37,011 bases of DNA, taken from a virus. A model generated the notes under the pieces. It was given only the letters and a program-made list of their open reading frames with translations. It was not told the origin of the DNA and did no database searches. The stretch is taken from positions 13,853-50,863 of IMG/VR virus record IMGVR_UViG_3300030389_004206; one strand, 5' to 3'. Each line of letters begins with the position of its first letter. The stretch's first letter is position 1. The position numbers and the translations under genes were made by a program. Shown here one piece after another: positions 795-5,859 of this stretch.

Positions 795-887
795 TTCTTG
801 ACCTCGCAGAAGATTCACCCGCGAGCGCGCCGGGAAACTTCTATTATAAGCTATGCTATGACGTGGGGTCAGGACTCAGGGATTTTT
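795..887. repeat. GC-palindrome/GTGGGGTC element, copy 3
   Basis: This is the third copy: TTGACC at 798-803, an imperfect GC palindrome CCCGCGAGCGCGCCGGG (818-834), the AT segment TTCTATTATAAG, then GTGGGGTC at 863-870 and GGGATTTTT. It lies immediately downstream, in the minus direction, of the nuclease stop codon. On the minus strand the box reads QKSL..DPT before running into stops, so it looks like a decayed copy of the gene's 3' end. Confidence 0.7.
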
Positions 888-2244: not shown

Positions 2245-2457
2245 GTAAGTACACTTTATGCTAAAATAAGTCTATTTCAATACTCAACATATCCCAACGT
2301 AACGTAACATTTAGTCCTAACGTTACACCCACGTAACACCCTAAAACCCCTAATATACAATGATAATAGTTATATATTATTAATGTTACGTAACATTTCT
2401 TCTAATTTATTTTTTTATTTTTGTATTTATATTTATATTACTATATGCACACGTTAC
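2214..2457. repeat. GTAAC/GTTAC iteron cluster beside the small terminase gene
   Basis: GTAACGT or its complement recurs: two copies 9 nt apart inside terS (2216-2222, 2225-2231), a double AACGT step at 2296-2310, TAACGTTAC near 2319, ACGTAACACC at 2331, a perfect 16-bp palindrome AATGTTACGTAACATT at 2382-2397, and ACGTTACACT at 2451. The interval 2245-2453 holds no gene. This is the pattern of a protein-binding site such as a packaging site, an operator or an origin. Confidence 0.65.
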
Positions 2458-2672
2458 ACTGTAGGCTTCACTGAACAAAAACTTGTTAAATAAACATTTC
2501 CTGCAGGTTTGAGACTTTGATATATTTGAGATGCGTCTTCATTACATTCAATCATTGTTTCATAAGATCCGTGGTCCAAGATCACTTGTTGACAGGTGTT
2601 TTCAAGTGAAAGGTTGGGATCATTTATACATATCCAAATAATTAGAAAGTATTTCATACTTTCAATATGCAA
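2454..2672 (-). CDS. Small exported or membrane-anchored protein
   Basis: The product, 72 residues from a TTG start at 2672, contains MKYFLIIWICIND, a short hydrophobic N-terminal segment that could be a signal or anchor. After it comes a polar region with several cysteines (ENTCQQVIL, MIECNED, TSFCSVKP) that could form disulphides outside the cytoplasm. An AGGA lies just upstream of the TTG; the alternative ATG at 2657 gives a tighter signal-like N-terminus but lacks a well-placed ribosome site. It is isolated between the iteron cluster and the structured leader of the divergent methyltransferase operon. No family is recognised. Confidence 0.5.
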   Translation of the reverse strand: MHIESMKYFLIIWICINDPNLSLENTCQQVILDHGSYETMIECNEDASQIYQSLKPAGNVYLTSFCSVKPTV

Positions 2673-2693
2673 TTAATCCTATATCATTGCAAC

Positions 2694-2770
2694 GAGATTC
2701 GTGGACACCTTTCCTCCTATTTTTTCATAGTGTCTCCGCAAGACAACAAGACAGCTTGTTCACGAGTCTC
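2694..2770 (+). ncRNA. Predicted three-way-junction leader RNA of the methyltransferase operon
   Basis: GAGATTCGTG (2694-2703) pairs with CACGAGTCTC (2761-2770) over 10 bp with one U-G wobble that works only in plus-strand RNA. P2 (GACA 2704-2707 with TGTC 2731-2734, extended by CTAT 2717-2720 with ATAG 2727-2730) follows with no linker. P3 (AACAAG 2745-2750 with CTTGTT 2755-2760) abuts the closing strand directly. An alternative hairpin TGTCT/AGACA (2731-2745) competes with P2. A weak promoter (TTTCAA 2660-2665, TATCAT 2682-2687) would start RNA at about 2693. The start codon is 16 nt after the fold. Confidence 0.55.
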
Positions 2771-2786
2771 CAGAAAATGAGAGAAT

Positions 2787-3422
2787 ATGAAACATAATTA
2801 TTTTAATATACCAGGATGGTTTAATATGCATGATGCATACGACCAGCTATTAGATCAGTGTGAAGACGGTGATGAAATACTAGAGATAGGGCCTTTCATG
2901 GGAAGATCCACGTCTTATCTAGCAACAAACATTATTAATTCAGCAAAGAAAGTTCACCTTTATTGTCTTGACACATTTGAAGGGAGCTCTGAACATGTTA
3001 ATCTTAAACTAAGTTCAAAGGGCTTTTACGATAAATTTTTACAAAACTGTCAAACGTTTATCGATAAAGGGGTAGTGACACCAATTAAATCTAGATCTGA
3101 TGATGCAAACACAATAAGAAGATTTCAAGATAAACATTTTCAAGGAATAATAGTGGACGCAGCTCATGAATATGAAGCGGTGAAAACTGACATTTTAAAT
3201 TGGTGGCCAAAGCTTAAGGACGGCGGGTCCATGGTTGGTGATGACATGTCATTGAAGTCTGTGCAACAAGCCGTAACAGATACCTTTGGTAAAAGTTTAT
3301 GTGTTGATAGTAGTGGCATAGACTACATCCAAGGGTATGAACAATGGTTTAGTGTATCTAAAAAAACGGAACGACCTAAATGTTTCAAATTGGTGCCTGG
3401 ACAGAATACTTTAGTGAAATGA
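2787..3422 (+). CDS. Class I SAM-dependent methyltransferase (Methyltransf_24-like)
   Basis: This 211-residue protein has the Rossmann methyltransferase layout. Motif I is ILEIGPFMGRSTSYLA (about residues 31-46), an acidic residue follows the second strand in YCLDTFEGS, and GIIVDAAHEYEAV followed by WWPKLKDGGSMVGDDM matches the later strands of the Methyltransf_24 group. Members often modify sugars or small molecules, so the substrate cannot be read from sequence; DNA-methyltransferase motifs are absent. The ATG is preceded by GAGAG and a predicted structured leader. It begins a plus-strand operon of three overlapping genes inserted between minus-strand blocks. Confidence 0.8.
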   Translation: MKHNYFNIPGWFNMHDAYDQLLDQCEDGDEILEIGPFMGRSTSYLATNIINSAKKVHLYCLDTFEGSSEHVNLKLSSKGFYDKFLQNCQTFIDKGVVTPIKSRSDDANTIRRFQDKHFQGIIVDAAHEYEAVKTDILNWWPKLKDGGSMVGDDMSLKSVQQAVTDTFGKSLCVDSSGIDYIQGYEQWFSVSKKTERPKCFKLVPGQNTLVK

Positions 3423-3700
3423 AATTTAACCTGAAGACGTGTCCAATTGTGATCGTCCGATGGCAAGACGCAACCGAGCCTTTCTCTGGCTGGGTAGAAT
3501 TCAAAGACATTATAAAAAAGACCGCAGCTGGTTGTTTTTCAATTGGATGGCTTGTAAAAGACACAGAAGAAGAGATGTCATTGATGGCCGACTGGTGTGA
3601 TGACGATTCTCAAGAAGGAGGAAGGGTTGCAATTATTCCCAAAGGTATGGTAAAAGAAGTAAAGTATTTAAAATACCATGATGCTAAAAGATATAATTAA
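3419..3700 (+). CDS. Conserved-looking hypothetical protein, operon gene 2
   Basis: The start is taken at 3419, where ATGA overlaps the stop of the methyltransferase gene; a longer in-frame reading from 3380 would lie inside that gene and is less likely. The 93-residue product begins MKFNLKTCPIVIVRWQDATEP and looks like a small beta-rich soluble domain with an acidic loop (MADWCDDDSQEGG) and a strand-rich end (GGRVAIIPKGMVKEVKYL). This pattern is familiar from uncharacterised phage proteins that seem to manage small-molecule or processing tasks, but no function is known to me. Confidence 0.7.
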   Translation: MKFNLKTCPIVIVRWQDATEPFSGWVEFKDIIKKTAAGCFSIGWLVKDTEEEMSLMADWCDDDSQEGGRVAIIPKGMVKEVKYLKYHDAKRYN

Positions 3701-3893
3701 GCAGCTAAGGGTGTTTGAACAGAGGACTGACTCAGGTGGTCATGACATGGTCTACGAGGTAGAATACAAAGATGGTTCAACAGAAAGATTTAATCATCGA
3801 GAGTGGAATACTATTGTAGCGAATGGAAAACAGTTTTGGGACAGACACATGAAGAATAAATACTTCGAACAGGGACACGAAGGCCTATATTAG
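3678..3893 (+). CDS. Small hypothetical protein, operon gene 3
   Basis: A 71-residue soluble protein starts MMLKDIIKQLRVFEQRTDSGG and contains a beta-hairpin-like stretch (YEVEYKDGSTERFNHREW). It overlaps the preceding gene by 23 nt and has no strong ribosome site of its own, so it is probably translated by coupling. Its stop codon overlaps by four bases the stop of the minus-strand gene at 3890-4024, so the operon ends tail-to-tail with no visible terminator. Function is unknown. Confidence 0.65.
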   Translation: MMLKDIIKQLRVFEQRTDSGGHDMVYEVEYKDGSTERFNHREWNTIVANGKQFWDRHMKNKYFEQGHEGLY

Positions 3894-4024
3894 GCCCCGT
3901 CATCCTCTTCAGATTCCTCTGATTCATCATCGCACTGACAATGCTTTACGGACAGTAATTCATTGTGTAGGTAAGCTATCGTTTGTAGTGCTTCTTGATA
4001 TTTTTCTTCTAGATTTTCTTGCAT
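3890..4024 (-). CDS. Acidic 44-residue protein
   Basis: The ATG at 4024 is preceded by AAGGAGGTCAAA, one of the best ribosome sites in the window. The 44-residue product starts MQENLEEKYQEALQTIAYLH, a likely amphipathic helix, has HCQC in the middle and ends in an acidic tail (DDESEESEEDDGA). Short acidic phage proteins often mimic DNA or inhibit host enzymes, but that is only a possibility here. A promoter with a motif shared with the replication-module promoter lies just upstream. Confidence 0.75.
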   Translation of the reverse strand: MQENLEEKYQEALQTIAYLHNELLSVKHCQCDDESEESEEDDGA

Positions 4025-4050
4025 TTTGACCTCCTTTTTGACGAAAGGCC

Positions 4051-4079
4051 AATATATAAAATTACAATCCTAACAGCAA
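4051..4079 (-). promoter_or_regulatory. Promoter with TTAGGATTG spacer motif, upstream of the 44-aa gene
   Basis: On the minus strand TTGCTG (4074-4079) and TATATT (4051-4056) are separated by 17 nt. The spacer starts with TTAGGATTG directly after the -35 box, exactly as in the promoter at 13858-13887. The motif begins about 41 nt before the start codon here and about 38 nt there, which suggests a shared phage regulator or promoter class. Confidence 0.5.
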
Positions 4080-4101
4080 ATAATCTTTGCTATTGACATG
4101 A

Positions 4102-4311
4102 TCAGTGTTTCGTGATCCGTGCGTCGTCTTCCTCAATCATCTCCTTCAACCAGTCTGGAGCCTGCTTTCTTATCGCTACTTCTATCATGTTTCTTAGTTT
4201 CATTTTTTCTACTTCATCACCACCAGTTGCTTTCTCTACCCTGTCCGATCGTAGAAATTTTTCTATCGTTTCGTTTACTGCTTTTTTCGTCATTATGCTA
4301 CCTTTCTTCAT
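4102..4311 (-). CDS. Small basic/acidic hypothetical protein
   Basis: The 69-residue product is hydrophilic and probably all helical: TKKAVNETIEKFLRSDRVEK, then MKLRNMIEVAIRKQAPDWL and a charged end. The ATG at 4311 has GGAG seven bases upstream; a second ATG at 4293 (starting MTKKAVNE) also has a reasonable site (AAAGG), so the start is uncertain by 18 nt. A perfect 6-bp hairpin with loop TAATC (4075-4091) follows the gene but has no U tract. Function is unknown. Confidence 0.65.
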   Translation of the reverse strand: MKKGSIMTKKAVNETIEKFLRSDRVEKATGGDEVEKMKLRNMIEVAIRKQAPDWLKEMIEEDDARITKH

Positions 4312-4416
4312 GATGTCTCTCCATCAGTCACACCACATACCTGTGTTACGAGGCTACAGACCAGGTGTCGACCCTTTGGATTAGGGTGGGATTGATAATC
4401 CGTTTATCAGACTATC
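4312..4416. other. Short gap with a 6-bp hairpin, no gene seen
   Basis: The only clear structure is TGATAA (4393-4398) pairing with TTATCA (4404-4409) around the loop TCCGT, just downstream of the 47-residue gene on the minus strand. No T tract follows on either strand, so it is not an intrinsic terminator; it may be a processing or stability hairpin. Confidence 0.4.
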
Positions 4417-4560
4417 TCACTTCACACTCTTTTCCAAACTTTTTATATATTTTTCTAACGCAAGAACTGCCTCGGTCACATTACTGTGAGCGATATCTTT
4501 CGTTATGTAGTCCTTGACAATTTGCATTGCCTGGCTACCGGTCATGAGCATTTTGAACAT
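4417..4560 (-). CDS. Small hypothetical protein (47 aa)
   Basis: The ATG at 4560 has GGAAAGGAGAGAAC directly upstream, an excellent ribosome site. The 47-residue product starts MFKMLMTGSQAMQIVKDYIT and continues with a helical, lysine-rich second half (VLALEKYIKSLEKSVK). It resembles short early phage proteins of unknown role. The ribosome site abuts the end of the pentamer array, so this gene is the first one translated after the array in the minus transcript. Confidence 0.75.
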   Translation of the reverse strand: MFKMLMTGSQAMQIVKDYITKDIAHSNVTEAVLALEKYIKSLEKSVK

Positions 4561-4572
4561 GTTCTCTCCTTT

Positions 4573-4968
4573 CCGGCCTCGCCAATCCACGCCTCACAAC
4601 ACCATACCCCAATCTACCGCAATCGTAACCCAACGAGCCACAACTCGCCACACCTGCCGAAATAAGCCTCAACTCACCATTCCAAGATAACCCTCACCTG
4701 AACGCACCTCACCCCGCCTGCCACGACACTCCAAAACTAATCCCGCCTCAACATAACTCACCTAGCCTGCCTTAACACACCTTGCTACCACCAGAGCGTA
4801 CCCGGCCTCACCACGCCTGCCTCGCCCTTCCTCAACTCACCGGACTATAACTAGCCTCACTCTGCCTGCCGCAACAAAACCGACCATACCTCGCTCAAAC
4901 TTACCACACCTGCCACGCCGTAACACACTGCGCCTTACCCCAACATATATGAACTTACCTAGCCTGCC
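4573..4968 (-). repeat. Non-coding 5-nt-period array (GGNNN on the minus strand) with GGCAGG slips
   Basis: Over about 395 nt, GG dinucleotides on the minus strand fall on a 5-nt grid. GGCAGG interrupts this, moving the grid by one base. CCTGCC occurs on the plus strand at 4653, 4717, 4766, 4816, 4865, 4909 and 4963; the spacings 64, 49, 50, 49, 44 and 54 are, except for 50, a multiple of five plus four. Each copy is preceded by a related box, consensus ACTYACCNNG on the plus strand. Stops occur in the minus frames and no ribosome site is seen inside. The array exactly fills the gap between two well-supported genes. Confidence 0.85.
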
Positions 4969-5192
4969 TAAACAGGTTCGGAATCGTCATGCTCTAAATC
5001 ATCAACGGTAGCAAGCACGTCCTCTATCTGTAATATGATAGAACCCATTTCATCTACATCGTCTTTATTTACATGACGTATCCCTTTAGATCTAGTGGCG
5101 TTGTTCATAGCTATCAGAGCGTCTTCGAGTAAACCGTAAAGTTCTCTGACTTCGTCTACCCACTCTTGATAATATTCGTCACTACTAGCCAT
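4968..5192 (-). CDS. Acidic helical hypothetical protein (74 aa)
   Basis: The ATG at 5192 follows directly on the stop of the 30-residue gene (TAAATG) and has AAAGGAGAA upstream. The 74-residue product is acidic and helical (EYYQEWVDEVRELYGLLED, then IILQIEDVLATVDDLEHDD). Its stop TAG is immediately followed by the first GGCAGG of the pentamer array. It could be a small protein-interaction module, but no family is recognised. Confidence 0.75.
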   Translation of the reverse strand: MASSDEYYQEWVDEVRELYGLLEDALIAMNNATRSKGIRHVNKDDVDEMGSIILQIEDVLATVDDLEHDDSEPV

Positions 5193-5285
5193 TTATTCTC
5201 CTTTCCTTACATACAATGGAACTCTAATCCATCCTTTTTTCTCTAACAATATTTTTATTATATGGTTATAATTATATTTTTTCAT
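5193..5285 (-). CDS. Thirty-residue basic peptide
   Basis: The ATG at 5285 has AGAAAGGAGAACTT upstream, a strong ribosome site. The 30-residue product starts MKKYNYNHIIKILLEKKGW and ends RVPLYVRKGE; it is basic with a central helix. Its stop directly abuts the next start codon, so the two genes form a coupled pair. It is too short for family assignment. Confidence 0.65.
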   Translation of the reverse strand: MKKYNYNHIIKILLEKKGWIRVPLYVRKGE

Positions 5286-5349
5286 AAGTTCTCCTTTCTT
5301 TTATGTGTGGTGCTGCTAGACAACAGCACCACTACATCTAGTATGCTTG

Positions 5350-5859
5350 TTACGCTGCATACTTATCGATGATGCGTTGAGCCTCAGAGAAAAACTTATG
5401 AAGTTCTCTTAGTTCTCCATACTTCTTTCTCCATGTGTTGAGATCTCTAGCAGCCTGTTCCAATATCTGCCTTCGATAATCATCATTGTCCAACGCTATA
5501 TCCAGTGGAACGTAACTGCGCTCGGCGTTGTCGTCATCACCGTCTGACGTAGTTACTTTTACACTATGAAAAGCACGAACCGGTTCGTCTACATGCTGCG
5601 TGACGACCATGACTGAACCGATTAACATTCTAGCTTCGTGCAATCGATGCTTTTCTGCAGCCGAAGCATCATCCCACGTGAAGCACGAGTGAAGTGGCGA
5701 ACTCTTTCTTTCTGCCGACTTCACAACTACATGTGGATTGAGGGTCCCGTACTTATTAGATATCGCTTCAAGCTCTTCTCCAACAGCTTGAGCGTCCACT
5801 GAATATTTTGTTTTACCATTGTTCCTAAATTCATAGGACTGTATTATTCTTCTACGCAA
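5350..5859 (-). CDS. Conserved phage early protein, function unknown
   Basis: This 169-residue protein uses a TTG start at 5859 with the near-perfect ribosome site AGGAGGTTAAAG, overlapping the upstream stop by 8 nt. The middle segment SCFTWDDASAAEKHRLHEA followed by RMLIGSVMVV and the helical C-terminus (YGELRELHKFFSEAQRIID) match a family I associate with early regions of many tailed phages, usually next to a partner like the 208-residue protein encoded just upstream. No biochemical role is known to me. The pairing and the stop/start overlap suggest that the two proteins act together. Confidence 0.75.
   Translation of the reverse strand: MRRRIIQSYEFRNNGKTKYSVDAQAVGEELEAISNKYGTLNPHVVVKSAERKSSPLHSCFTWDDASAAEKHRLHEARMLIGSVMVVTQHVDEPVRAFHSVKVTTSDGDDDNAERSYVPLDIALDNDDYRRQILEQAARDLNTWRKKYGELRELHKFFSEAQRIIDKYAA

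Follow-up and report, generated by a model that had tools for sequence, protein, structure and literature searches.

The window analysed here, a stretch of 37,011 nt that forms part of a virus record of 50,863 bases, contains a terminase small-subunit gene on the minus strand (1705–2244; PHROG 51, E 3.5e-9). The large terminase of this phage is closest to those of 023Pt_psg01, the Pelagibacter phages HTVC027P and HTVC023P, and phage DSL-LC04, with identities of 61–66%. Relatives of the HTVC023P-type phages are reportedly widespread in the ocean (PMC9599517). The element that concerns us lies about 450 nt upstream of the small-subunit gene and points in the opposite direction. It occupies positions 2694–2770 of the plus strand, between a divergent small open reading frame on the terminase side (2457–2657, minus strand) and the gene for a Class I methyltransferase of the Methyltransf_24 type (2787–3422, plus strand; Pfam PF13578, E 4e-17), in this phage the first complete gene to follow the element. 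The 77-nt extent given in an earlier note, made from the letters of this DNA, and the distance of 16 nt that it gave to the ATG at 2787 are borne out on the sequence. A vestigial mini-ORF (MREYET; 2777–2797, plus strand), which lacks a Shine-Dalgarno sequence, marks the site where relatives begin their first gene, ORF1 (KYRDITVTVKD...).

The earlier note had the fold begin where a promoter would start transcription, and a −10-like box is present just upstream of 2694 (TATATC/TATCAT; 2680–2687, plus strand); it defines a putative promoter, the start site of which would fall near the base of the closing stem, P1. Of the 16 homologues, 14 have a TATAAT-like hexamer, matching at five or more of six positions, at 7–8 nt before the P1 core, and two lack a good upstream −10. 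The divergent small ORF keeps a start exactly 38–39 nt away from the P1 core, in each of the 16 copies. This ORF encodes 67 amino acids in the window and 65–67 across the 16 relatives, and their alignment shows four cysteines that are invariant in all of them. The promoter stretch read on the minus strand (2659–2693) weakly resembles a CRISPR repeat family at a sub-threshold E of 0.19, probably by chance. Elsewhere in the window, a C-rich and G-poor stretch at 4600–4960 (plus strand; GC 0.54–0.58, GC skew about −0.5 to −0.6) comprises degenerate CCTGCC/CTCACC-like units between converging gene blocks.

A covarying stem on the plus strand

The RNA of the element folds at −22.9 kcal/mol, against a mean of −12.7 for shuffled sequences (z −3.7, with none of 200 shuffles as good), while the minus strand gives a weaker fold (z −2.2). 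The earlier note had described a closing stem of 10 bp with a single G-U pair. This stem is confirmed, and the minimum-energy fold lengthens it to 14 bp by pairing the 5′ arm GAGATTCGTGGACA (2694–2707) with the 3′ arm TGTTCACGAGTCTC (2757–2770), both on the plus strand. Relatives came from searches of viral contigs that used the methyltransferase and the terminase small subunit as queries; these gave 16 distinct copies of the element. Across these copies 94% of the P1 cells are paired, compared with 81% in shuffles; eight of the 14 pairs show two-sided changes; the covariation score is 0.496 versus 0.260 in shuffles; and the pairing collapses when the alignment is slid by a single column. Covariation in homologues, whose absence would have counted against the earlier note's reading, is present for P1 beyond both the shuffled and the slid controls. 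Within the 12-bp core 191 of 192 cells are paired, and the pairs include 31 G-U and no A-C, so that the folding species is the plus-strand RNA. In the 37-kb window, stems of at least 12 bp with at least five G-C pairs and an interior of 20–75 nt are found at three plus-strand places and nowhere on the minus strand, so P1 is unusual without being unique. We are highly confident that a structured plus-strand RNA exists at this element, for which the analysis shows structure, strand, conservation and position as well as independence from the gene downstream; the earlier note's proposal of a structured regulatory leader on this strand finds support in the conservation, the position, the G-U polarity and the covariation.

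The interior of the fold differs from what had been proposed. The minimum-energy fold contains neither of the two inner helices of the supposed perfect three-way junction, and across the 16 relatives P2 (GACAC/GTGTC) is paired in 64% of cells and P3 (AACAAG/CTTGTT) in 44%, no better in either case than in shuffled or slid controls. The three-way junction is thus unsupported. The stem instead encloses two invariant motifs among linkers that vary in length and sequence. The motif UUCCUCCU (2711–2718, plus strand) is found in all 16 distinct elements, is mostly unpaired (mean unpaired probability 0.52–0.93) and is complementary to Shine-Dalgarno sequences. The 11-mer UGUCUCCGCAA (2731–2741), likewise invariant in 16 of 16, carries a small apical hairpin (2731–2745, plus strand) in which UGUCU pairs with AGACA across the loop CCGCA. 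All homologues are predicted to form this hairpin, each in one of two registers; as its own pairs do not covary among the 16 copies, it rests on prediction. The earlier note had listed the same TGTCT/AGACA pairing only as a competing hairpin.

A second strong fold resembling a three-way junction is seen at 796–874 (plus strand), with z −3.3 against −1.0 for the minus strand. Some relatives have related copies of it at a spacing of about 90 nt, and the window itself shows short partial repeats at about 432–457 and 551–578.

Relatives of the element and a sister family

The element is present in all 27 terminase relatives that have at least 656 nt of upstream sequence, and the three relatives without it are contigs with 302 nt or less. 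Searching with the divergent small ORF returned 26 matches, all on contigs already known to yield the element. Because every copy comes from one terminase clade, the sequence counts for this family do not represent independent events. A tree-based count of substitution events was judged unreliable, since the small ORF behind the tree appears to have recombined against the element. A 13-nt repeat common to the element and the terminase gene was also discarded as probable chance. The element occurs once per genome, in genomes that have several operons. Among viral contigs the pattern of UUCCUCCU followed by UGUCUCCGCAA is found only in this clade, apart from unrelated matches. A scan of bacterial genomes with this single pattern (257 billion bases) gave 51 matches, about the number expected by chance; all are weak in the model, the best at 22.6 bits compared with 65–80 for true members, and none was accepted. 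Model R2 finds nothing in HTVC023P and HTVC027P (nearly whole genomes) or in 023Pt_psg01 and DSL-LC04 (part), and model R1 finds nothing in the terminase regions of these four. In the literature searched on HTVC023P-type phages we found no description of a noncoding RNA.

The gene behind the leader is not constant. In relatives the first plus-strand gene is an ORF of 42–64 amino acids, a methyltransferase or an unrelated ORF of 62 amino acids, from which it follows that the element belongs to the operon adjoining the terminase small subunit and not to one gene. Its description as the front of a SAM-dependent methyltransferase operon is thus true of this phage but does not extend to its relatives. 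Our proposal, at somewhat short of an even chance, is that it forms the 5′ leader of the operon diverging from the terminase small-subunit gene, in a clade related to the HTVC023P-type pelagiphages.

In sister phages, whose methyltransferase is mostly 38–46% identical, the same locus in the region divergent from the terminase holds an element that is analogous but built differently. It consists of a 15-bp stem and a hairpin with the loop UCCUUUC, both strongly covarying, and an unpaired CCUCCUUU. Among 35 distinct rows, 13 pairs have changes on both sides, and all shuffles fall short of the observed values for pairing, for two-sided changes and for covariation; this 35-row alignment was fitted to its own model and leans towards it, while the first sister set, which also has compensatory changes beyond its controls, is an independent MAFFT alignment. 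Pairs of the G-U type number 85, against 17 A-C or C-A. The model built from the first set matches 55 of 56 sister loci, and a pattern scan of viral contigs revealed further sister-type copies in phages of this kind among the matches listed. A model search does not find the sister element in the window, and it is absent from HTVC023P and HTVC027P, both nearly whole. The sister motifs match the 16S tail GGATCACCTCCTTTCTA over 7–11 nt in 38 of 39 elements, with the tail taken from a Bradyrhizobium genome. Both the pairings and the motif matches of the sister copies share ancestry and are not independent events.

The two families have in common the locus, the plan of a stem plus a hairpin, and CCUCC, and they differ in the order of the motifs; either a common ancestor or separate origins may account for them. 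An exposed motif of the CCUCC type is present in both, as UUCCUCCU in 16 of 16 elements of the window family, with only one per copy, and as CCUCC in 35 of 35 distinct sister rows. Of all the claims in the earlier note, the suggestion that a pyrimidine tract could mask purine-rich ribosome sites gains the most: every copy keeps this tract unchanged, and the sister family, a separate one, has it again as a near-copy of the 16S tail. Sister loci also have a promoter-like TTGACC, a spacer of 16–18 nt and an AT-rich −10, situated at, in or just after the 3′ arm, so that some sister transcripts would start beyond the element. At the sister locus L040 (2120–2160) TTGACC is followed by a 17-nt spacer and TATTAT, with the −35 inside the 3′ arm, which would give ORF1 a very short leader.

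Other features of the sister phages were noted along the way. Hairpins with loops of UCUCCGCA lie in intergenic sequence upstream of an MLN[DE]IK gene, on the minus strand at about 4582 of L048 and about 4850 of L018, and T-rich runs follow some of them. Hairpins containing GTCTCCGCA elsewhere in sister phages seemed related at first; they precede another gene, are unmatched by R1 and were set aside. Small minus-strand ORFs behind the complement of AAAGGAGG, inspected by eye in several sister copies, do not keep their start and stop codons and were rejected as well.

Possible roles of the proposed leader

The most likely reading is that the element represents a new family of pelagiphage leader RNA that presents anti-Shine-Dalgarno-like loops and acts on translation. 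Since the stem and the C-rich motifs are constant and the gene behind them is variable, a role at the level of the transcript is favoured over the regulation of one enzyme. The anti-Shine-Dalgarno proposal is made because the motifs complement Shine-Dalgarno sequences used by these phages, and because the first gene usually has none. Transcription would proceed from the −10 box, and the stem of 12–14 bp would begin at the likely start or a few bases from it, presenting the unpaired UUCCUCCU together with the small hairpin that carries UGUCUCCGCAA. The C-rich loops would then be a decoy of the 3′ tail of 16S rRNA; their partners would be purine-rich Shine-Dalgarno sequences, either in cis or in trans, at which the pairing would lower or re-time translation, while ORF1 behind the leader would escape, having no Shine-Dalgarno sequence in the copies read. 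The usage of such sites by the phages is consistent with this scheme in part. Upstream of their genes, AAAGGA and AGGAG show an enrichment of about 4- to 6.5-fold. The most frequent 7-mer ahead of the genes of sister phages is GAAAGGA (25 of 207, where 1.4 would be expected), which is complementary to the loop of the sister hairpin. Counting against it, AGGAGGA is rare upstream of genes in the window-family phages (2 of 232), and the motifs of this family match the 16S tail mostly over 6 nt, UGUCUCCGCAA sharing only CUCC. Two further points against it are the promoter-like site near the 3′ arm in the sister family and the two window-family copies that lack a good upstream −10. Moreover, any CCUCC motif would be complementary to Shine-Dalgarno sequences, which falls short of showing that the two pair. 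That the C-rich loops act on translation by such pairing is therefore a tentative suggestion from sequence complementarity, possible but on the doubtful side.

Two known systems bear a resemblance to the scheme. The sister motif CCUCCUUUC(UA) matches the alphaproteobacterial 16S rRNA 3′ tail over 8–11 nt in most copies; the phage motif differs in being held within a phage-encoded stem-loop. Alphaproteobacteria have anti-Shine-Dalgarno small RNAs, the alpha-r14/CcsR family, with CCUCC-type loops CCUCCUCCC, which are stand-alone transcripts with terminators. These too are structured RNAs with CCUCC-type motifs at unpaired positions, whereas the phage element precedes an operon, and no intrinsic terminator or terminator-like site was found in 2300–5400.

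A protein might read the same loops. In such a leader a binder of pyrimidine tracts, for example ribosomal protein S1 or a phage regulator, would occupy the C/U-rich loops and recruit the 30S subunit to the ORF1 start or repress the operon. The invariant motifs are pyrimidine-rich in both families, and in most window-family copies the start codon follows the stem by 7–12 nt without a Shine-Dalgarno sequence. However, the second window motif, UGUCUCCGCAA, is no pyrimidine tract, and the copies L108 and L110 have a normal Shine-Dalgarno sequence and a longer gap to the start codon; we consider this reading rather unlikely. The element could also work as nascent RNA on RNA polymerase, by antitermination or anti-pausing in the manner of HK022 put, or could protect the 5′ end of the mRNA, whatever gene follows. 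Here the beginning of the stem near the likely +1, regardless of the gene behind it, is suggestive. The putL RNA is also of similar length (about 70 nt) and lies just downstream of its promoter, the pairing in its cryo-EM fold beginning at A3 (PMC9378689). Like putL, the element is putatively a structured phage leader of about 70–80 nt at the very start of a transcript, in cis. The put RNA, though, has two stem-loops and binds the zinc-binding domain of RNA polymerase (PMC9378689), and such a pair of adjacent stem-loops is not seen here: what covaries is one long stem, with two C-rich motifs and a predicted apical hairpin inside it. With a single copy per genome despite several operons, and no terminator nearby that would need suppression, we hold a role of this kind to be unlikely.

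A site acting as DNA, for example a cos or pac site for packaging, or an operator within the divergent promoter region, would fit the vicinity of the terminase small subunit and the fixed spacing of 38–39 bp to the divergent ORF. But both arms of P1 change together, and a DNA inverted repeat would not favour the G-U pairs over A-C that the stem keeps (31 to 0), which makes a DNA site quite improbable. As to RNAs that bind small molecules, marine phages carry riboswitches, for example glutamine riboswitches, and the element shares with them its place as the leader RNA of a marine phage. Its compact fold, its invariant unpaired bases and the SAM-dependent enzyme behind it in this phage could speak for a riboswitch, e.g. 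for SAM or SAH. The element differs, though, in having no Rfam riboswitch match and no constant metabolic gene downstream, and as the gene behind it changes among relatives a SAM or SAH switch is left without support. Neither a terminator nor a conserved platform sequestering a Shine-Dalgarno sequence is seen, and a riboswitch is very improbable. The small fold with conserved core letters might equally bring a self-cleaving ribozyme to mind, which we regard as exceedingly improbable. Rfam covariance models run on 2640–2800 and on a sister copy returned nothing at the gathering threshold and next to nothing at E up to 10, with no ribozyme or riboswitch family matching even there; the look of a riboswitch or small ribozyme that the earlier note had seen gains no support there. 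ARAGORN finds no tRNA-like RNA.

Possible meaning for pelagiphage gene expression

Returning to the anti-Shine-Dalgarno reading, its furthest consequence would be that an RNA encoded by abundant marine phages that infect SAR11-type hosts mimics the 3′ tail of 16S rRNA, as a stem-loop with anti-Shine-Dalgarno sequences on display, at one locus and in two differently built families, and so steers translation initiation towards phage genes that have no Shine-Dalgarno sequence or away from others. We put this forward as an unlikely outcome. A leader RNA supported by covariation, in two families at one locus, offers a concrete way into the question of how these phages choose or time the expression of their genes. 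If the resemblance to the 16S tail is functional, a phage RNA would here be in competition with the sequence by which the ribosome itself reads mRNA.
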